Assembly (NCBI RefSeq): GCF_002197845.1
Contig: NZ_NIDE01000014.1
Location: 496,001-560,000, forward strand
Direction: 5' to 3'
Source of the DNA: Fimbriiglobus ruber
Lineage (GTDB): Bacteria; Planctomycetota; Planctomycetia; Gemmatales; Gemmataceae
DNA: 64,000 nt
Shown here: piece by piece, positions 40,297 to 49,725 of the stretch
How positions within the stretch are numbered: position 1 is the stretch's first letter
Layout: every line of letters begins with the position of its first letter
Notes under the pieces: model-generated
What the model was told of the DNA's origin: nothing
Seen by the model: the letters and a program-made list of their open reading frames with translations, nothing else
Databases searched by the model: none
Made by a program: the position numbers and the translations under genes

Positions 40297-40521
40297 GCTC
40301 TTCGCAAAATCAGTCGTTTGCTAACGTCCCGGCGGGCGTCGGTCCGGCACATCATTCTCACCTCGTCGTGAGAGTGTGATGTCGTGATTTTTGTCGCCTG
40401 GACGTGGACAGGTGATTCCTCCGGTGTGCTTTCTCATCATGCCTTCCCTCCCACGCGGATTGACTCCGCAGTATGGTGGGTTGAGGGCGTGACAACCCAC
40501 CTTATTTGGGGTCAAACAATC

Positions 40522-41808
40522 ATGCGCCTCGGTCTATTTGCGTGCGGCGTTTTTCTGTTCCTCATCGCCGCTATTCCGTCATCTGCTGCCGATCCCGCGC
40601 CGGCCATGCCGTCACCCGCCAAGGTCCAACCTCCGCGCCTGCCGCCCGGGTTCGACGCGGACAAACTTACCGACCCGCAAGAGGCGGCCAAGGTCGCGGA
40701 CTGGGTCGAAAAGGAATACGCGGGTAGTCCGCAACCCGAATCGGTGCGGATGCTCGTCGCGATCCTGCGAAAAGGAGCCCAGATTGGCGGGCAGGACGGG
40801 TGGTTCCGGCCGGCCGAGACGCGATACACCTGGAAGTGGCTGGTCGGTCAGCAGGGACTCGCCGCCGACGCGAAGGCGCTGCCGGCGGGTAAATTCCACG
40901 GCTCGCCGGCACTCTTCGACCGACTCGACCGCGACGGCGACGGGGCGATCACGCCGGGCGACCTGGACTGGTCGGACCGGAATCCCGACGTCCAGCAACT
41001 CGGCATGGTGAGCCGGCTCTTCCGCCGGATGAACACGGCCGGGAACGGGAAGCTGACCCGCGAGGATCTCGACGAGTTCTTCAAGAAGGCGGCCCGGGGC
41101 AAGGACCACATCACCCCCGACGACCTCCGCCTGCTGCTGTACCCCCGGGGCGGATACCTGCCGGGCGACATGCCGAGTACGCCGATGTTCACCCGGGGGT
41201 TCCTCGCGGGCGAGATCGGGTCCATGAGTGAAGGCCCGCGACCGGGTGTCGCGACCCCCGATTTCACGCTGAAGACAGTGGACGGGAAGGACACCGTAAC
41301 GCTCTCGAAACTCGTCGGGCCGAAACCCGTCGTTCTGGTGTTCGGGAACTTCACCTGCGGACCGTTCCGGGCCTTGTACCCCGAAGTCGAGGCGGTCCAC
41401 GACCGGTTCAAAGACGACGCGACGTTCCTGATGGTCTACGTCCGCGAAGCCCACCCCACCAACGGCTGGGTCATGGCCTCGAACACCCGGGCCGGCGTCG
41501 CGGTCAAGCAACCCACGTCGTTCACGGAGCGCGTCGACGTGTGCAAGCAGTTCTGCCAGAAACTCAAGCCCGCGATGCCGGTGGTGGTGGACGAGATCGA
41601 CGACCCGGTCAACACCCTCTATAGCGGCGTGCCGGCCCGGTTGTACGTGATCGACACGAAGGGCAGGGTGGCCTACCAGAGCGGCCGCGGGCCGTTCGGG
41701 TTCCGGGCCGGCGAGATGGAACAGGCGCTCGCCATGTGCCTCCTGGAAACCAAACCCGCGAAGGAACCGGCGTCCGCCCCCGTCGGCCGCGCCCCGGCCG
41801 ACCGGTGA
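40522..41808 (+). CDS. Exported EF-hand / deiodinase-like redox protein
   Basis: A 428-aa protein with a signal peptide (MRLGLFACGVFLFLIAAIPS). EF-hand-like loops occur at about 136-147 ('DRDGDGAITPGD') and 171-182 (NTAGNGKLTRED). The C-terminal thioredoxin-fold domain (about 240-410) resembles iodothyronine deiodinase-like proteins: 'VVLVFGNFTCGPFRALYPEV' has Cys279 where deiodinases carry selenocysteine, and 'FLMVYVREAHPTNGWVM' matches the EAH..(D/N)GW motif. Its reaction is unknown; peroxide or other redox chemistry outside the cytosol is plausible. ATG 40522 was chosen at the signal peptide. The AhpD-like selenoprotein candidate follows after 46 bases. Confidence 0.8.
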   Translation: MRLGLFACGVFLFLIAAIPSSAADPAPAMPSPAKVQPPRLPPGFDADKLTDPQEAAKVADWVEKEYAGSPQPESVRMLVAILRKGAQIGGQDGWFRPAETRYTWKWLVGQQGLAADAKALPAGKFHGSPALFDRLDRDGDGAITPGDLDWSDRNPDVQQLGMVSRLFRRMNTAGNGKLTREDLDEFFKKAARGKDHITPDDLRLLLYPRGGYLPGDMPSTPMFTRGFLAGEIGSMSEGPRPGVATPDFTLKTVDGKDTVTLSKLVGPKPVVLVFGNFTCGPFRALYPEVEAVHDRFKDDATFLMVYVREAHPTNGWVMASNTRAGVAVKQPTSFTERVDVCKQFCQKLKPAMPVVVDEIDDPVNTLYSGVPARLYVIDTKGRVAYQSGRGPFGFRAGEMEQALAMCLLETKPAKEPASAPVGRAPADR

Positions 41809-41854
41809 TGGCTGCGCGGGGACGAAACGACCGACCGCCGACAGAGGAGACGAC

Positions 41855-42436
41855 ATGCCCTGGATCAACTTCGTGCCCTACGACCGGGCCGACGGCGACT
41901 TGAAGAAGGCGTATGAGGCCATCTACTCGGTTTACCCGGGGGAATACCGCGACCCGGTCCCGTCGCTCGTCAAGCCGGACGGGACCGAGGACAGCATCGT
42001 GGCCGTCCACAGTCTGATCCCCGAGGCGATGCGGCACATGATGTCTGGCCTGGGCGTTCTCCTGCAACCGAACCTGCCGCTGACGCGCCGCCAGCAGGAG
42101 ATGATCGCCGCGGTCGTGTCCGTTCACAACAGGTGCTTTTACTGAACGGAAAGCCACATCGAGTTCCTCCGCCGGGCCAGCCTGGACGACGAACTCGCCG
42201 CCGAGTTACGGCGGGACTACACCCGGGCCGACCTCTCCGAGGCGGATCGCGCCATGCTCGACTTCGCCGTCCGCCTGACCGCGGCGGCGTACAAACTCAC
42301 GCCCGACGACGTGGCCCGGTTGCGGGCCGTCGGGTTCGACGACACCGGCGTCCTCCAGATCACGCTGATCGCCTCGTGGTTCAACTACATCAACCGCGTT
42401 GCCGACGCGCTGGGAGTGGGCCGGCCCGACCCCTGA
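41855..42436 (+). CDS. AhpD-like protein with in-frame UGA, probable selenoprotein
   Basis: Codons from ATG 41855 read [20 protein letters not shown] onward. '[19 protein letters not shown]' is followed by TGA at 42143-42145 and then, in the same frame, '[20 protein letters not shown]' to the stop at 42434-42436. This is a complete 193-residue carboxymuconolactone-decarboxylase/AhpD-type protein if UGA is read as residue 97. In relatives the active site is C-x-x-C (as in CHYC); here it would be C-F-Y-U, with UGA exactly at the second Cys. A hairpin 15 bases after the UGA could be the SECIS. The alternative is a nonsense mutation, but the downstream part shows no decay. Role: thiol/selenol peroxidase-like redox enzyme, substrate unknown. 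Confidence 0.75.
42160..42197 (+). promoter_or_regulatory. Candidate bacterial SECIS hairpin
   Basis: CGAGTTC (42160-42166) pairs with GAACTCG (42191-42197); inside, CCGGG pairs with CCTGG (one G-U) around a CCAG tip, with a 5x5 internal loop between. It begins 15 bases after the UGA codon. Opening the top pair gives the loop GCCAGC, which starts with the G typical of bacterial SECIS loops. Tentative. Confidence 0.45.
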
Positions 42437-42463: not shown

Positions 42464-44746
42464 ATGTTCAAGATCCTTTCTCACCTGGCGACCTGGCCGA
42501 CCGCCGGGATCGTGTCCCTGCTCGCCCTGGTCGGTGGCGGTCTTTACTATGTGACCGGCACGAGCCCGCCGGTGGTGGACGCCGTCGCGCCGCCGCCGTC
42601 GTTGCAATACAAGCCCCGCATGCCAATCGACAGCGGCGGCTACGGCATCGTCACCAGCAAGGTCAAGCCGTGGCCGCCAACAGCCTCCCTCGAAGAGGTC
42701 GCCGACTCTTACCGGAAAGTTGGCCCGCGCCTCCTTGAGGTTCTTGAGAAGGAAATGGCCAGCCCGTTGTTTCCCGCCCGGCTCCTGTCTCAGGGGCGGC
42801 TCGTTCGCGCCAGCCTTCTGAACTACGAGGGGCAACCGGCCAAGGCGTACGAGACCCTGTCGGAAGCGCGGACGGGAATCGAGGCCGACGCCGAGCTCGC
42901 CCGGGAGTGGTTGTACACGTTCATTTATTACCAGGGTCTGACGGCGCTGCGTCGCGGGGAGACGGACAACTGCGTGCTGTGCCGGGGCGAGAGTTCGTGC
43001 ATCCTTCCGATCGCGGCGGCGGCCGTCCACACCCAGCCGACGGGGTCGCGGCTGGCGATCCGCCACTTCACCGAATACCTCGACCGGTTCCCGGACGACC
43101 TGGAAGTCCGGTGGCTGCTGAACATCGCCCACATGACGCTCGGCGAACATCCCGCCAAGGTCGACCCGCGCTACCTGGTCTCCCTCGACCGGTACAACCA
43201 CTCGGAGTTCGACATCGGTCGGTTCCGGGATGTTGGGCATTTAGTCGGGGTGAACCGGCTCAACCAAGCGGGGGGCGGGATTCTGGAGGACTTCGACGGC
43301 GACGGTCTCCTGGATCTCGTCGTCAGTTCGTTCGACCCGACCGAGCCGATGGCGTATTACCGCAATAAGGGTGACGGGACGTTCGAGGACCGGACCAAGG
43401 AGGCGGGGATCGCGAACCAGGTCGGCGGCGGGTTGTATTGCGTACAGGCGGATTACAACAACGACGGCCACCCGGACGTATTCGTCTGTCGCGGGGCCTG
43501 GATACAGCACGCGGTGCGGCCGAGTCTCCTGCGCAACAACGGGAACGGGACGTTTACCGACGTGACGGAGGAAGCCGGCCTCCTCGACCCGGTGAACTCG
43601 ATTTCCGCGTCGTGGGCGGACTACGACAACGACGGCCACCTCGACCTGTACGTCTGCAACGAACGGGGTCCGTGCCGGCTGTTCCACAACCGGGGGAACG
43701 GCACGTTCGAGGAGGTGGCAGCGAAGGCCGGCGTGACCGGCGGCCCGGCCGGCGGGTGGAAGGGGGCGGCGTGGCTCGATTACGACAACGACGGCTACCC
43801 CGACCTGTTCGTCAACAACCTGAACGCCACCGCGGCGCTGTACCGGAACAACCGCGACGGCACCTTTTCGGACGTCACGCTCAAGATGGGGATCGACGGC
43901 CCGAAGGAAGGGTTCTCGTGCTGGGCGTGGGACTTCGACAACGACGGGTACCTGGACATCTTCGCCACCTGCTACCAGCGCACACTGGGAGATGTCGTGA
44001 AGGGCCTGATGGGCCAGCCACACGGGTGCCAGTCGAGCAAGTTGTATCGCAATCTGGGCGGGAAAGGGTTCCAGGACGTGACGAAGGAAGCCGGCCTCGA
44101 CATGGCGTTCTCGACGATGGGCAGTAACTTCGGCGACTTCGACAACGACGGCTACCCGGACTTCTACCTGGGCACCGGCGACCCGTTGTTGAGCACGTTA
44201 ATACCGAACCGGATGTTCAAGAACGTGGGCGGGAAGCGGTTCGCGGAGATCACCGGGACGTCGGGGACGGGACACCTGCAGAAGGGCCACGGGGTCGCGT
44301 GCGGTGACTGGGACCGCAACGGCACGGTCGACGTCTTCATCGAGATGGGCGGGGCGATTAACGGGGACAAGTACCACAACATTCTGTTCCAGAACCCGGG
44401 CCAGGGGAACAACTGGCTGTCGGTCAAGCTCGTCGGCCGGAAGACGAACCAGTCGGCGATCGGGGCTCGGATCAAGGTGCAGACGGCCGGCCCCCAACCG
44501 TTGACGGTCCACCGGCACGTGTCGAGCGGGAGTAGCTTCGGGGCCAACCCGCTCGAGCAGCACGTCGGGCTGGGTAAGGCGGACCGGGTCGCGGTGGTCG
44601 AGATCTACTGGCCGACGAGCGGGACGACGCAGGTGTTCCGGGACGTGCCGGTGAACCGGGGGATCGAGGTGACGGAGTTCGCCACCGACTACAAGACACG
44701 CGAGTGGAAGCCGATCCCGCTGCCCAAGGATGGCGGCGGAAAATAG
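42464..44746 (+). CDS. CRTAC1-like FG-GAP/UnbV protein, copy 1
   Basis: A 760-aa protein. One N-terminal membrane or signal segment ('WPTAGIVSLLALVGGGLYYV'), then a helical TPR-like region (about 70-240) containing a Cys cluster 'CVLCRGESSCILPI'. An FG-GAP beta-propeller with repeated 'DYDNDG(Y/H).DL' Ca-binding loops follows (about 265-620). It closes with an ASPIC/UnbV domain ('NWLSVKLVGRKTNQSAIGAR', 'GSSFGANPLEQHVGLGKADR', 'YWPTSGTTQVF'). It is probably anchored to the membrane and faces outward. The start lies 27 bases after the AhpD-like gene, so the two are probably co-transcribed. Two close paralogues follow. Confidence 0.9.
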   Translation: MFKILSHLATWPTAGIVSLLALVGGGLYYVTGTSPPVVDAVAPPPSLQYKPRMPIDSGGYGIVTSKVKPWPPTASLEEVADSYRKVGPRLLEVLEKEMASPLFPARLLSQGRLVRASLLNYEGQPAKAYETLSEARTGIEADAELAREWLYTFIYYQGLTALRRGETDNCVLCRGESSCILPIAAAAVHTQPTGSRLAIRHFTEYLDRFPDDLEVRWLLNIAHMTLGEHPAKVDPRYLVSLDRYNHSEFDIGRFRDVGHLVGVNRLNQAGGGILEDFDGDGLLDLVVSSFDPTEPMAYYRNKGDGTFEDRTKEAGIANQVGGGLYCVQADYNNDGHPDVFVCRGAWIQHAVRPSLLRNNGNGTFTDVTEEAGLLDPVNSISASWADYDNDGHLDLYVCNERGPCRLFHNRGNGTFEEVAAKAGVTGGPAGGWKGAAWLDYDNDGYPDLFVNNLNATAALYRNNRDGTFSDVTLKMGIDGPKEGFSCWAWDFDNDGYLDIFATCYQRTLGDVVKGLMGQPHGCQSSKLYRNLGGKGFQDVTKEAGLDMAFSTMGSNFGDFDNDGYPDFYLGTGDPLLSTLIPNRMFKNVGGKRFAEITGTSGTGHLQKGHGVACGDWDRNGTVDVFIEMGGAINGDKYHNILFQNPGQGNNWLSVKLVGRKTNQSAIGARIKVQTAGPQPLTVHRHVSSGSSFGANPLEQHVGLGKADRVAVVEIYWPTSGTTQVFRDVPVNRGIEVTEFATDYKTREWKPIPLPKDGGGK

Positions 44747-44809: not shown

Positions 44810-44847
44810 CGGCCGGTTCCCCGGGTGAAACCCCGGGGAACCGGCCG
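44810..44847 (+). terminator. Strong hairpin after CRTAC1-like copy 1
   Basis: A 16-bp perfect stem CGGCCGGTTCCCCGGG with a TGAAAC loop, about 65 bases after the stop. There is no T-run, so it may be a stabilising hairpin or a dispersed repeat rather than a full terminator. Confidence 0.55.
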
Positions 44848-44863
44848 TTCGCCCGACCACGGC

Positions 44864-45011
44864 GGCGTATAAACTGATGCCAGGCGACGGGGCCGGCCTC
44901 CGGGAGGTCGGGTCCGACGTCAGCGTCCCCCAGATCACGCTGATCGCCGCGTGGTTCAATGACGTCAACCGCGTGGCCGACGCTCTGGGCGTGGTCCGCC
45001 CCGATCCGTGA
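44864..45011 (+). pseudogene. Remnant of a second AhpD-like gene (C-terminal end)
   Basis: The frame reads [20 protein letters not shown] and '[20 protein letters not shown]' then GVVRPDP and a stop, closely matching the C-terminus of the 41855 gene ('[20 protein letters not shown]', '[20 protein letters not shown]'). No N-terminal part is present. It sits upstream of the second CRTAC1-like gene exactly as the full gene sits upstream of the first, showing that the pair was duplicated together. Confidence 0.8.
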
Positions 45012-45037
45012 CGCCGGTTCGCCCGAGGCAGGTGCCC

Positions 45038-47329
45038 ATGCGCAAGACGCTCTCCCACCCGGCGACCTGGCTAATCGCCGCGGGCGTGTCCCTGCTCGCC
45101 GTCGGCGCCGGCCTGTACCTCGGGGCGGGCACGACCCCACCGCCGACGGACGTCGTCTCGCCGCCACCGCCGCCGCAACACGAGCCCCGCAAGTCGTTCG
45201 ACACCTCCGGCTTCCTCACCGTCGCCGACAAGCTCAAACCGTGGCCGCCGACGGCCTCCCTGGAAGAAGTCGCCGACTCTTACCGGAAGGCCGGCTACCG
45301 CCTCCTCGGAGTTCTCGATCAAGAAATGGCCAAACCGTCGCTGTCCTCCCGGCAACGAACCCAGGGCCGCCTCGTCCGGGCCGTTCTCCTGAACTACGAG
45401 GGGGAACCGGCCAAGGCGTACCAGGCCCTGTCGGAGGCGCGGGCGGAAATCGAGGCCGACGCCGGGGGCGCCAGAGAGTGGTTGTTCACGTTCATCTTTT
45501 ATCAGGGGGTGACGGCGCTGCGGCGCGGGGAGACGGACAACTGCGTGCTGTGCCGGGGGGAGAGTTCGTGCATCCTTCCGATCGCGGCGGCGGCCGTCCA
45601 CACCCAGCCGACGGGGTCGCGGCTGGCGATTCAGCACTTCACCGAATACCTCGACCGGTTCCCCGACGACCTGGAGGTCCGGTGGCTGCTGAACATCACC
45701 CACATGACGCTCGGCGAGCATCCCGCCAAGGTCGACCCGCGGTACCTGGTTTCCCTCGACCGATACACCCACTCGGAGTTCGACATCGGGCGGTTCCGGG
45801 ACGTCGGCCACCTGGTCGGGGTGAACCGGCTCAACCAGGCGGGCGGGGTGATCATGGACGACTTCGACGGCGACGATCTCCCTGACATCGTTGTCAGCTC
45901 GTTCGATCCGACCGAAGCGATGGTGTTCTACCGCAACAAGGGGGACGGGACGTTCGAGGACCGGACCAAGGAGGCGGGGCTGTCGAACCAAATCGGCGGC
46001 GGGTTGTATTGCGTGCAGGGGGATTACAACAACGACGGCCACCCGGACGTCTACGTCTGCCGCGGGGCGTGGCTGCTTTACCCGGTGCGGCCGAGCCTCT
46101 TACGCAACGACGGGAACGGGACGTTTACCGACGTGACCGCGGAGGCGGGTCTCTTGGACCCGGTCAACTCGATTTCCGCGTCGTGGGCGGACTACGACAA
46201 CGACGGCCACCTCGACCTGTTCGTTTGCAACGAGACCGGCCCCTGTCGGCTTTACCGCAACCGGGGTAACGGCACGTTTGAAGAGGTGGCGGGGAAGGCC
46301 GGCGTGTCCGGCGGCCCGGCCGGCGGGTGGAAGGGGGTGGCTTGGGTCGATTACGACAATGACGGCTACCCCGATCTGTTCGTCAACAACATGACCACCA
46401 CCGCCGCGCTCTTCCGGAACAATCGCGACGGCACCTTCTCCAACGTGACGGCGAAGATGGGGATCGACGGCCCGCGGCAAGGGTTCTCGTGCTGGGCGTG
46501 GGACTTCGATAACGACGGGTATCTGGACATCTTCGCCTCCTGTTACGATCGCGCTCTGGGAGACGTGGTGAAGGGTCTGACCGGCCAACCGCACTCGCGC
46601 CGTTATTCGAACAAGTTGTACCGCAATCTGGGCGGGAAGAAGTTCCAGGACGTGACCAAGGAGGCTGGCCTCGACGTGGTCATGTCGCCCATGGGGAGCA
46701 ATTTCGGCGACTTCGACAACGACGGCTACCTCGACTTCTACATGGGCACCGGCGACCCGTCGTTGTTCTTGCTGGTGCCGAACCGGATGTTCAAGAATGT
46801 GGGCGGGAAGCGGTTCGCAGAGATCACCGGGACGTCGGGGACAGGGCACCTGCAGAAGGGTCACGCGGTCGCGTGCGGGGACTGGGACCGCAACGGAACG
46901 GTGGACGTGTTCATTGAAATGGGGGGCGCGGTCAACGGGGACAAGTACCACAACATCCTGTTCCAGAATCCGGGCCAGGGGAACAACTGGCTGTCGGTGA
47001 AACTCGTCGGCAAGAAGTCGAACCGGTCGGCGATCGGGGCGCGGATCAAGGTGCAGACGGCCGGCCCCCAACCGTTGACGGTCCACCGGCACGTGTCGAG
47101 CGGGAGTAGCTTCGGGGCCAACCCGCTCGAGCAGCACGTCGGGCTGGGTAAGGCCGACCGGGTCGCGGTGCTTGAGGTCTACTGGCCGACGAGCGGGACG
47201 ACGCAGGTGTTCCGGGACGTGCCGGTGAACCGGGGGATCGAGGTGACGGAGTTCGCCACCGACTACCGGACGCTCGACCGCAAGCCGATCCCGCTGCCGA
47301 AGGGTGGCGAGCAAGCAATAGGGAGATGA
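45038..47329 (+). CDS. CRTAC1-like FG-GAP/UnbV protein, copy 2
   Basis: A 763-aa paralogue of the 42464 gene with the same order: N-terminal hydrophobic segment ('WLIAAGVSLLAVGAGLYLGA'), helical region with 'ETDNCVLCRGESSCILPIAA', FG-GAP propeller, ASPIC/UnbV tail. Long blocks are identical at protein level, for example 'HTQPTGSRLAI' and 'PLTVHRHVSSGSSFGANPLE'. ATG 45038 has GAGGCAGG upstream and starts the signal segment; the frame is open 10 codons further. No frame damage. The function is unknown; it is probably an extracytoplasmic Ca-stabilised scaffold or binding protein. Confidence 0.9.
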   Translation: MRKTLSHPATWLIAAGVSLLAVGAGLYLGAGTTPPPTDVVSPPPPPQHEPRKSFDTSGFLTVADKLKPWPPTASLEEVADSYRKAGYRLLGVLDQEMAKPSLSSRQRTQGRLVRAVLLNYEGEPAKAYQALSEARAEIEADAGGAREWLFTFIFYQGVTALRRGETDNCVLCRGESSCILPIAAAAVHTQPTGSRLAIQHFTEYLDRFPDDLEVRWLLNITHMTLGEHPAKVDPRYLVSLDRYTHSEFDIGRFRDVGHLVGVNRLNQAGGVIMDDFDGDDLPDIVVSSFDPTEAMVFYRNKGDGTFEDRTKEAGLSNQIGGGLYCVQGDYNNDGHPDVYVCRGAWLLYPVRPSLLRNDGNGTFTDVTAEAGLLDPVNSISASWADYDNDGHLDLFVCNETGPCRLYRNRGNGTFEEVAGKAGVSGGPAGGWKGVAWVDYDNDGYPDLFVNNMTTTAALFRNNRDGTFSNVTAKMGIDGPRQGFSCWAWDFDNDGYLDIFASCYDRALGDVVKGLTGQPHSRRYSNKLYRNLGGKKFQDVTKEAGLDVVMSPMGSNFGDFDNDGYLDFYMGTGDPSLFLLVPNRMFKNVGGKRFAEITGTSGTGHLQKGHAVACGDWDRNGTVDVFIEMGGAVNGDKYHNILFQNPGQGNNWLSVKLVGKKSNRSAIGARIKVQTAGPQPLTVHRHVSSGSSFGANPLEQHVGLGKADRVAVLEVYWPTSGTTQVFRDVPVNRGIEVTEFATDYRTLDRKPIPLPKGGEQAIGR

Positions 47330-47454
47330 ATCCCGGGACGCACCGGTCGTGTAAAATTTGCACACACGATCCCACTACCGTTGACGGGGCGTCTGATGTT
47401 GACCCGGGCCGGCCCCGCCGGCTGAAATGCCACCCGCGTACATTCGAGAAGCCG

Positions 47455-49725
47455 ATGACCAAAACCTTCTCCCGCACGATGGTCTGGCGAACCGCCGGGG
47501 TCGTTTGCCTGCTCGCGGCCGTCGGCGGCGGCCTGTATTTCGGGACCGGCACGGCACCGCCGGTGACGAGCGCCGCCCCGTCGCCCCCGCCGCAATACAA
47601 GCCCCGCAAGCCGTTCGACACGGCCGGATACGCCACCATTACGTCACTGATCAAACCCTGGCCGCCCTCGGCCTCCCTCGAAGAGGTCGCCGACTCCCAC
47701 CGAAAGATCGGCTACCGGCTGCTCGGAGTTCTCGATCAGGAAATGGCCAACCAAGTGCTGTCCTCCCGGCAACGAACCCAGGGCCACCTCGTCCGGGCCG
47801 CCCTCATGAACTACGAGGGGGAGCCGGCCAAGGCGTACCAGACCCTGACGGAGGCGCGGGCGGAAATCGAGGCCAGTGCCGGGATCGCCGAAGAGGTGCT
47901 GTACACGTTCATTTATTACCAGGGTCTGACGGCGCTGCGGCGCGGGGAGACGGACAACTGCGTGCTGTGCCGGGGCGAGAGTTCGTGCATCCTTCCCATA
48001 GCACCGGCGGCCGTCCACACCCAGCCGACCGGGTCGCGGCTGGCGATCCGCCACTTCACCGAATACCTCGACCGGTTCCCCGACGACTTGGAGGTCCGGT
48101 GGCTGCTGAACATTGCCCACATGACGCTCGGCGAATATCCCGCCGGGGTCGACCCGCGGTATCTGGTTTCCCTCGACCGGTACACCCACTCGGAGTTCGA
48201 CATCGGGCGGTTTCGGGACGTCGGCCACCTGGTCGGGGTGAACCGGCTCAACCAGGCGGGGGGGGCGATCATGGACGACTTCGACGGTGACGGGTTGCTC
48301 GATCTCGTCGTCAGTTGTTTCGACCCGACGGAGCCGATGGCGTTCTACCGGAACAAGGGGGACGGGACGTTCGAGGACCGAACCAAGGAGGCGGGGCTGT
48401 CGAACCAGGTGGGCGGCGGGTTGTACTGCGTGCAGGCGGATTACAACAACGACGGCCGCCCGGACATCTACGTCTGCCGCGGGGCGTGGCTGAACGACGT
48501 GGTGCGGCCGAGTCTTCTGCGCAACAACGGGAATGGGACGTTTACCGACGTGACCGCGGAGGCGGGTCTGTTGGACCCGGTGAACTCCATCTCCGCGTCG
48601 TGGGCGGACTACGACAACGATGGCTATCTTGACCTGTTCGTCTGCGTCGAGCGGGGCCCGTGTCGGCTCTACCGCAACCGGGGCACCGGGACGTTCGAAG
48701 AGGTGGCGGTGAAAGCCGGCGTGTCCGGCGGTCCGGACGGCGGGTGGAAGGGGGCGGCCTGGGTCGACTTCGACAACGACGGCTACCCCGATCTGTTCGT
48801 CAACAATCTGAGAAGCACCGCGATACTCTATCGGAATAATCGGGACGGCACCTTCTCCAACGTCACGGCGGCGATGGGCATCGACGGCCCGAAGGAAGGG
48901 TTCTCGTGTTGGGCGTGGGACTTCGACAACGACGGGTACCTGGACATCTTCGCCACCTCCTACAACCGCACGCTCGCGGACGTAGTAAAAGGCTTGATCG
49001 GCCAACCGCACTCGCGATATCCCAACAAGTTGTATCGCAATCTGGGCGGGAAGGGGTTCCAAGATGTCACGAAAGAAGCCGGTCTCGACATGGTGTTCGC
49101 GACGATGGGGAGCAATTTCGGCGACTTCGACAACGACGGCTACCTCGACTTCTACCTGGGCACCGGCGACCCGATGTTGAGTACATTGGTGCCGAAGAGG
49201 ATGTTCAAGAACGTGGGTGGGAAACGGTTCGCGGAGATCACCGGGTCGTCGGGGACGGGTCATTTGCAGAAGGGTCACGCGGTCGCGTGCGGGGACTGGG
49301 ACCGCAACGGGACGGTGGACATCTTCATCGAAATGGGCGGGGCGATTAACGGGGATAAGTACCACAACATCCTGTTCCAGAATCCGGGCCAGGGGAACAA
49401 CTGGCTATCGATCAAGCTGGTCGGCAAGAAGACCAACCGGTCGGCGATCGGGGCTCGGATCAAGGTGCAGACGGCCGGTCCGGAGCCGCTGACGGTCCAC
49501 CGGCATGTGTCGAGCGGGAGCAGCTTCGGGGCCAACCCGCTCGAACAGCACGTCGGGCTGGGCAAGGCGGACCGGGTCGCGGTACTTGAGGTCTACTGGC
49601 CGACGAGCGGGACGACGCAGGTGTTCCGGGACGTGCCGGTGAACCGGGGGATCGAGGTGACGGAGTTCGCGACCGACTACAAAACACGCGAGTGGAAGCC
49701 GATCCCGCTGCCCAAGGGGAATTAG
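47455..49725 (+). CDS. CRTAC1-like FG-GAP/UnbV protein, copy 3
   Basis: A 756-aa third paralogue. It starts MTKTFSRTMVWRTAGVVCLL; ATG 47455 was chosen because the hydrophobic segment follows directly, although the frame is open 43 codons upstream. It has the same Cys cluster ('CVLCRGESSCILPIAPAAVH'), propeller and UnbV tail. Differences from copies 1 and 2 are concentrated in the N-terminal 150 residues and in the propeller loops facing outward ('AWLNDVVRPSLLRN', 'NLRSTAILYRNNRDG'), as expected if the three recognise different partners. It is followed after 27 bases by the gene at 49753. Confidence 0.9.
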   Translation: MTKTFSRTMVWRTAGVVCLLAAVGGGLYFGTGTAPPVTSAAPSPPPQYKPRKPFDTAGYATITSLIKPWPPSASLEEVADSHRKIGYRLLGVLDQEMANQVLSSRQRTQGHLVRAALMNYEGEPAKAYQTLTEARAEIEASAGIAEEVLYTFIYYQGLTALRRGETDNCVLCRGESSCILPIAPAAVHTQPTGSRLAIRHFTEYLDRFPDDLEVRWLLNIAHMTLGEYPAGVDPRYLVSLDRYTHSEFDIGRFRDVGHLVGVNRLNQAGGAIMDDFDGDGLLDLVVSCFDPTEPMAFYRNKGDGTFEDRTKEAGLSNQVGGGLYCVQADYNNDGRPDIYVCRGAWLNDVVRPSLLRNNGNGTFTDVTAEAGLLDPVNSISASWADYDNDGYLDLFVCVERGPCRLYRNRGTGTFEEVAVKAGVSGGPDGGWKGAAWVDFDNDGYPDLFVNNLRSTAILYRNNRDGTFSNVTAAMGIDGPKEGFSCWAWDFDNDGYLDIFATSYNRTLADVVKGLIGQPHSRYPNKLYRNLGGKGFQDVTKEAGLDMVFATMGSNFGDFDNDGYLDFYLGTGDPMLSTLVPKRMFKNVGGKRFAEITGSSGTGHLQKGHAVACGDWDRNGTVDIFIEMGGAINGDKYHNILFQNPGQGNNWLSIKLVGKKTNRSAIGARIKVQTAGPEPLTVHRHVSSGSSFGANPLEQHVGLGKADRVAVLEVYWPTSGTTQVFRDVPVNRGIEVTEFATDYKTREWKPIPLPKGN

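Follow-up and report, generated by a model that had tools for sequence, protein, structure and literature searches.

AhpD-like proteins with a CxxU active site are an already known selenoprotein family. A 2026 review lists an “AhpD-like protein, TIGR01926, CxxU” (PMC13188914), its reference 59 being the Sargasso Sea paper, in which 27 AhpD-like CxxU sequences were reported in 2005 (PMC1088965); elsewhere, 299 and 70 sequences have been assigned to two AhpD-like families (PMC2398784). The catalytic relay of Mycobacterium tuberculosis AhpD comprises Glu118, Cys130, His132, Cys133 and His137, with Tyr in place of His132 in PA0269 (PMC3141380). As for the recoding signal, reviews place the bacterial SECIS element directly after the UGA, mostly with 16 to 37 nt to its loop. 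The same 16-37 nt range from UGA to loop is among the bSECISearch constraints, and a subset of bacterial SECIS elements fails this rule, all as given in the review (PMC13188914). Among titles and abstract openings in the open-licence literature, we found no description of a displaced, two-part or spacer-hairpin bacterial SECIS, which is weak evidence of absence.

Here, we analyze a gene of this family in a 64,000-nt stretch of the Fimbriiglobus ruber genome (contig NZ_NIDE01000014.1, positions 496,001 to 560,000), hereafter the window. The unexpected part is the layout of the recoding signal. The best explanation, to which we give a probability of roughly 0.75, is an AhpD-like protein with selenocysteine at position 97 (Sec97), in which the second of two downstream hairpins (H2) would be the SelB site and the first (H1) a spacer.

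The AhpD-like gene and its in-frame TGA

The gene lies at positions 41855-42436 of the forward strand and would encode 193 residues, including Sec97. Its ATG at 41855 follows, after five bases, an AGGAG that is probably the ribosome-binding site (41845-41849, forward strand). The sole in-frame TGA is codon 97 (42143-42145), after which 96 sense codons lead to a TGA stop at 42434-42436. As the original prediction held, this UGA coincides with the second Cys of the AhpD C-x-x-C motif, in the context RCFY-TGA-TESH. The protein has a match to Pfam CMD (PF02627) and scores above the curated TIGR01926 (“peroxidase-related enzyme”) cut-off (109.2 versus 81.8 bits), with Sec at the same CxxC position as in the AhpD-like TIGR01926/COG2128 CxxU family. 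TIGR01926 is also matched by all 28 members of one sequence set (A5) at E 0.001 or better, the cut-off score being given for the F. ruber protein. Two profiles of the related domain with a Sec site, NF041238 (AhpD_rel_CFYUT; 67.3 versus a cut-off of 175 bits) and NF053654 (YciW-related (seleno)protein; 25.5 versus 310 bits), match weakly, and membership in either was rejected; none of the 95 family genomes has an NF041238 match above the 175-bit cut-off.

An AlphaFold model based on 28 aligned sequences is all-helical, with a mean pLDDT of 95.3. Its top Foldseek match is 6k40, an alkyl hydroperoxide reductase AhpD (TM 0.80, 28% identity), and the predicted fold is shared with the AhpD-type structures 6k40, 3c1l and 2oyo, the latter two having Cys at the place where the F. 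ruber protein has Sec. All five relay positions are filled, with spacing as in AhpD: Glu82 (42098-42100; AhpD Glu118), Cys94 (42134-42136; Cys130), Tyr96 (His132), Sec97 (Cys133) and His101 (42155-42157; His137), each codon on the forward strand. Because the relay residues keep the AhpD spacing, Sec appears to replace the second redox Cys. The Sec97 selenolate would attack a hydroperoxide or disulfide and Cys94, the probable resolving Cys, would resolve it; we consider this the likely natural mechanism.

The second active-site codon is TGA in all 110 related loci, which were pooled from a search of the 95 family genomes (L016-L045) and a scan of named genome contigs (L046-L125). These loci represent 93 distinct genes, in 93 distinct 400-nt contexts, because the contigs repeat genomes of the first search. 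Our script was able to report Cys codons at the Sec position and found none in the 110 loci, and the scan patterns give TGA no advantage, since the sole pattern spanning the codon reads Cys. Cys occurs at this position in the alignments only in the distant relatives 3c1l and 2oyo. The original prediction had argued that the placement of the UGA is no accident and had suggested asking homologues whether they carry Cys or UGA; both points were decided in favor of a conserved TGA. The family genomes contain 25 genes of at least 61% identity, the F. ruber gene included, each with the internal TGA. Two loci contain a further stop codon inside the aligned stretch, a TAG in L038 and a second TGA in L039. 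The named-contig scan gave 251 relatives, and the named records among the best 80 of these 251 come mostly from Planctomycetota and Acidobacteriota, with others from Armatimonadota, Gemmatimonadota, Latescibacterota and two Chloroflexota-labelled metagenome-assembled genomes (MAGs); among these 80 are a Gemmataceae MAG (L046, 85%), Limnoglobus roseus (L050) and Gemmata sp. (L054), relatives from which the family was taken to be Gemmataceae. The anticipated conservation of the 96-codon continuation is borne out by dN/dS values of 0.08-0.23 over the first 92 codons past the UGA in eight comparisons; for genes of unequal length, values 5' of the UGA are not dependable, since the two halves were cut to size unaligned.

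The four components of the Sec machinery for which a genome check had been proposed are all encoded in F. ruber above their cut-offs: selA (557.4 bits), selD (361.8 bits), selB (362.6 bits with its neighbours in frame) and tRNA-Sec (70.7 bits; called SeC by ARAGORN, anticodon tca). Sec insertion would use these genome-encoded SelA, SelB, SelD and tRNA-Sec. Past its cut-off, selA is found in 85 of the 95 family genomes and in 24 of the 25 with a window-type gene, the exception (G013, 65% complete) having a fragment; being nearly universal in the family, selA agrees with the Sec reading and does not discriminate.

These sequence comparisons indicate that the gene almost certainly encodes a selenoprotein in which UGA codon 97 specifies Sec. 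What had been called a probable new selenoprotein is upheld as a selenoprotein, with its TGA kept and Sec machinery encoded, but not as a new family, the TIGR01926 CxxU proteins having been reported earlier. By the annotation rule for TGA alone, the gene would count as broken, the TGA having arisen by mutation or through an error in sequencing, with a product that stops at residue 96. Decay does occur nearby, as seen in a C-terminal remnant of 71% identity at 44844-45008; however, the same-codon TGA in every locus and the constrained reading frame past it leave this account a negligible probability. If the UGA were instead decoded as a residue other than Sec, by suppression or a change of code, selection on the downstream frame would be kept too. 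Against such decoding, TGA serves as the terminator here and in 57 of 108 counted genes, the genome encodes tRNA-Sec and the sel genes, and the UGA substitutes exactly for the redox Cys and is followed by selected RNA hairpins, so that we consider it very improbable.

A deiodinase-related protein with EF-hands (40384-41808, forward strand; NF038285, 501 bits) ends 46 bases 5' of the selenoprotein gene and has Cys in the motif NFTCGPF, at the place where animal deiodinases have Sec. Downstream on the forward strand are three tandem FG-GAP/UnbV-type genes (42464-44746, 45008-47329 and 47326-49725), of which the last two each share 83-84% identity with the first. The remnant at 44844-45008, also on the forward strand, shares 81% DNA and 71% protein identity with the selenoprotein gene over 56 residues, without the UGA part, and sits between two FG-GAP genes, as if the gene end and an FG-GAP gene had been duplicated together. 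Deriving a function from neighbours was rejected: within flanks of at most 6 kb, often shorter, around the best 80 of 251 relatives, an upstream deiodinase-like gene is present in 1 of 80 loci and a downstream FG-GAP-type gene in 12 of 80, where identity is mostly close to 30%.

Selection on two abutting hairpins after the UGA

A hairpin starting at the 15th base past the UGA, as had been predicted, is present. This hairpin, H1, spans 42160-42197 of the forward strand and is closed by the stem CGAGUUC/GAACUCG. Abutting it, further 3' of the UGA, is H2 (42198-42214, forward strand), CCGCCG[AGUUA]CGGCGG, with a folding energy of -10.2 kcal/mol alone and its loop 58-59 nt past the UGA. We applied the published bacterial SECIS constraints directly. 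The 5-nt loop and 6-bp stem of H2 lie within the allowed 3-9 nt and 4-16 bp, its loop AGUUA has G within the first two positions (G in the second, followed by U), and its energy is below the limit of -7.5 kcal/mol. In these respects H2 resembles the bacterial SECIS model; it differs in that its loop is 58 nt from the UGA in linear distance, outside the range of 16-37 nt, a distance that shrinks to about 20 nt once H1 is omitted. The placing of the conserved-loop hairpin of F. ruber, 58-59 nt past the UGA and behind another hairpin, may set it apart from the described AhpD-like CxxU family.

The stretch earlier proposed for a SECIS scan, 42143-42210, covers H2 only in part. The fold of 42143-42205, a stretch that cuts H2 in half, does not differ notably from those of dinucleotide shuffles (z -1.02), 29 of 200 of which do equally well. 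For the 40 nt that begin at the UGA, folding is poorer than in shuffles (z +1.11), and H1 taken by itself (42160-42197) is conspicuous, at z -3.47. Rfam returned two matches at 42100-42300, both far below gathering scores.

The window gene belongs to a clade of 29 distinct genes; 25 of them come from the family genomes, and the others are L049, L051, L056 and L057. The last two come from Chloroflexota-labelled MAGs and have the planctomycete layout, suggesting transfer or mis-binning. As placed in this analysis, H1 starts 14 nt past the UGA in all 29 genes. Its closing stem is well kept, and its interior and its length (38 to 65 nt) are variable; the apical loop is not conserved: only 8 of 29 genes have a G within its first two bases, and in the F. 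ruber gene it reads CCAG. The GUU of the H2 loop (42205-42207, forward strand) is kept in 28 of 29. Its UU comes from a Leu codon that reads TTA or TTG in all but one of the 29 genes, and of 140 positions compared, none has a stronger synonymous bias; in the 26-gene set, TTR accounts for 95 of 535 Leu codons, counting 25 at H2. By a strict rule, a G-loop hairpin is found at 38-90 nt in 24 of 29 genes, the other five having no passing hairpin at H2. At 16-37 nt, such hairpins are found in 9 of 29 genes, at scattered places, and are absent from 20, the F. ruber gene (L016) among them.

Pair counts and resampling were performed on 26 of the 29 clade genes; L026, L029 and L030, which carry an insert, were left out and inspected separately. 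On average, 6.69 of 7 H1 pairs form versus 5.62 under codon-preserving resampling (sd 0.14; maximum 6.08; 0 of 1,000 as high), and 5.54 of 6 H2 pairs versus 3.66 (sd 0.20; maximum 4.23; 0 of 1,000 as high), in tests that treat related genes as separate. Pairing is complete in 18 of 26 genes for H1 and in 16 of 26 for H2; a seventh, innermost H2 pair forms in only 10 of 26. When 44 nine-codon windows were scanned, again by codon-preserving resampling, the minimum fell over H2 at codons 18-26 (mean z -1.63), where 22 of 26 genes were below -1 and none above 0. Among 20 fourteen-codon windows, the minimum fell over H1, starting at codon 5 (mean z -1.66; 18 of 26 below -1). Separately, codons 33-41 past the UGA (42242-42268) showed the second-lowest folding, with a mean z of -1.12 and 15 of 26 genes below -1, for which we offer no explanation.

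Covariation points the same way, in figures that relatedness among the genes inflates: 90.1% of cells are paired, whereas letter shuffles average 85.4%, none of 500 reaching the observed value, and sliding the helices gives 34-48%. Four pairs, two per helix, have both partners changed, in 10 cells altogether; as many such pairs occur in 6 of 500 shuffles, and 35 of 500 shuffles had as many further pair types. RNAalifold on the gapped 29-gene alignment missed H1 and H2 and returned a weak 4-bp stem without covariation; in this alignment, the 27-nt insert of three genes had shifted the columns. A covariance model of H1 and H2 recovered all 25 known genes in the 95 genomes at E 2.9e-18 or better, plus three weak matches at E 0.004-0.007. 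Two of the latter, in G053, lack a TGA where one would be expected, and the third, in G007, covers H1 only.

Recoding signals in sister genes and within single genomes

Sister genes of the same protein subfamily carry their hairpin elsewhere. Across L067-L125, which are 59 distinct genes and belong mostly to Acidobacteriota, the sequence GCAGAGTTTCTGCG at codons +5 to +9 is invariant, its bases being kept although the amino acids permit other codons, and codons +5 and +9 take ranks 1 and 2 of 140 positions in synonymous bias. The hairpin has 7 bp and a GUU loop starting 17 nt past the UGA, a position such as the published bacterial SECIS model asks for. Its 14-base core, within bases 11-27 past the TGA and present in several phyla, is a strikingly conserved SECIS candidate in itself. 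A G-loop hairpin is present at 16-37 nt in 59 of 59 sister genes and at 38-90 nt in 10 of 59, the latter being the chance level for the count in the window clade. The sister-gene hairpin and H2 thus share the GUU loop and a stem of 6-7 bp, but, unlike H2, the sister-gene hairpin is near the UGA and has no spacer hairpin. A sister-type hairpin at codons +4 to +9 of the F. ruber gene was considered and rejected, this gene having no G-loop hairpin in the canonical range and its 40 nt from the UGA onward folding less well than shuffled sequence.

Within the window clade, the length of H1 varies. L026, L029 and L030 carry a 27-nt insert inside H1, which makes it 65 rather than 38 nt long with the closing stem kept. 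H2 still abuts H1 in these genes, its loop now being 85 nt past the UGA versus 58, and with H1 left out, the distance from the UGA to the H2 loop is 20 nt for both the 38-nt and the 65-nt H1. Since the three genes form one small clade, they count as one event.

A second, longer AhpD-like type (CxYU-xGH) has a GGUC-loop hairpin 26 nt past the TGA in 15 of the 16 genes retrieved (L156-L171; all but L170), which were taken from weaker TGA-bearing matches in the family genomes. The exact GGUC-hairpin pattern has 37 matches in 33 of the 95 genomes, the genes having been checked for part of them, and the reversed control has none; the F. ruber genome has no match to this pattern. Three loci (L041-L043) fail the strict hairpin rule and by eye have a GGUC loop, with one mismatch, 25 nt past the UGA. 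Thirteen family genomes hold both a window-type gene and genes with the usual GGUC hairpin. In 12 of the 13, as in the F. ruber genome, a single SelB scores above the cut-off, and one SelB therefore probably serves both the displaced and the GGUC signals. In G008, selB (G008:C3:432847-435031) is in two pieces, neither above the cut-off alone, reflecting a frameshift, an error or a real split.

In a tree whose bootstrap had not converged, all 29 displaced-layout genes group in a single clade (93/91), and the 59 genes with the proximal hairpin need two changes. Because the other types show usual distances, the displaced layout looks derived.

Readings of the recoding signal

How might a GUU hairpin this far from the UGA act? 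We propose that SelB would bind the GUU loop of H2, in place of the hairpin that sister genes carry near the UGA, and that H1 would fold out the extra 38 nt, bringing H2 to an effective distance of about 20 nt, which is normal. On the sequence evidence, H2 is probably the displaced SECIS and SelB site. We also lean, with some reserve, toward the broader description of a two-part displaced SECIS across the clade, in which the GUU hairpin lies 58 to 86 nt past the UGA and the gap is taken up by the folding of a variable H1 (38 or 65 nt). The hairpin pointed out in the original prediction is real and probably the spacer, and the likelier SelB site is the next hairpin at 42198-42214. Assigning this role to H2 has to contend with a loop that the published model, with its 16-37 nt, would not admit, with the five clade genes that lack a strict-rule hairpin there, and with the nine that have a G-loop hairpin in the canonical range. 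The seventh H2 pair that most genes lack, the RNAalifold outcome and the good folding of codons 33-41 also weigh against it.

One rival reading is that H1 itself is the SECIS and that H2 only stabilizes the structure or causes a pause. H1 is in the usual place, its apical loop (31 nt past the UGA) falls inside the 16-37 nt range, it is selected as RNA, and atypical bacterial SECIS elements are allowed for in the review (PMC13188914). Yet its apical loop is the part that is not conserved, G appearing in the first two positions in so few genes and CCAG standing here; its length ranges from 38 to 65 nt; and loop conservation is seen in H2, with its GUU. We therefore consider H1 an unlikely SECIS. 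Somewhat more plausible, though still doubtful, is that both hairpins act, H2 as the SECIS and H1 as a stimulating element beside the UGA, akin to the redefinition elements that occur in some eukaryotic selenoprotein genes. The uniform start of H1 and its preserved closing stem would suit such a role, but the closing stem alone is well kept, and the interior and length vary. We favor H2 as the SelB site, with H1 as its proposed spacer or perhaps a stimulator.

The window clade offers a concrete, testable case, a GUU hairpin about 42 nt further out and behind a kept hairpin. The contrast is at hand in the sister genes with a hairpin in the usual place, whose 14 invariant bases, kept despite synonymous freedom, make a ready reference element, and in genomes where both kinds of signal occur. 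Should the proposed reading be true, bacterial Sec insertion would measure position in the folded RNA and not in nucleotides, which would bear on the distance tolerance of SelB and the ribosome. The 16-37 nt rule would then miss a class of genes, which would explain overlooked selenoprotein genes.
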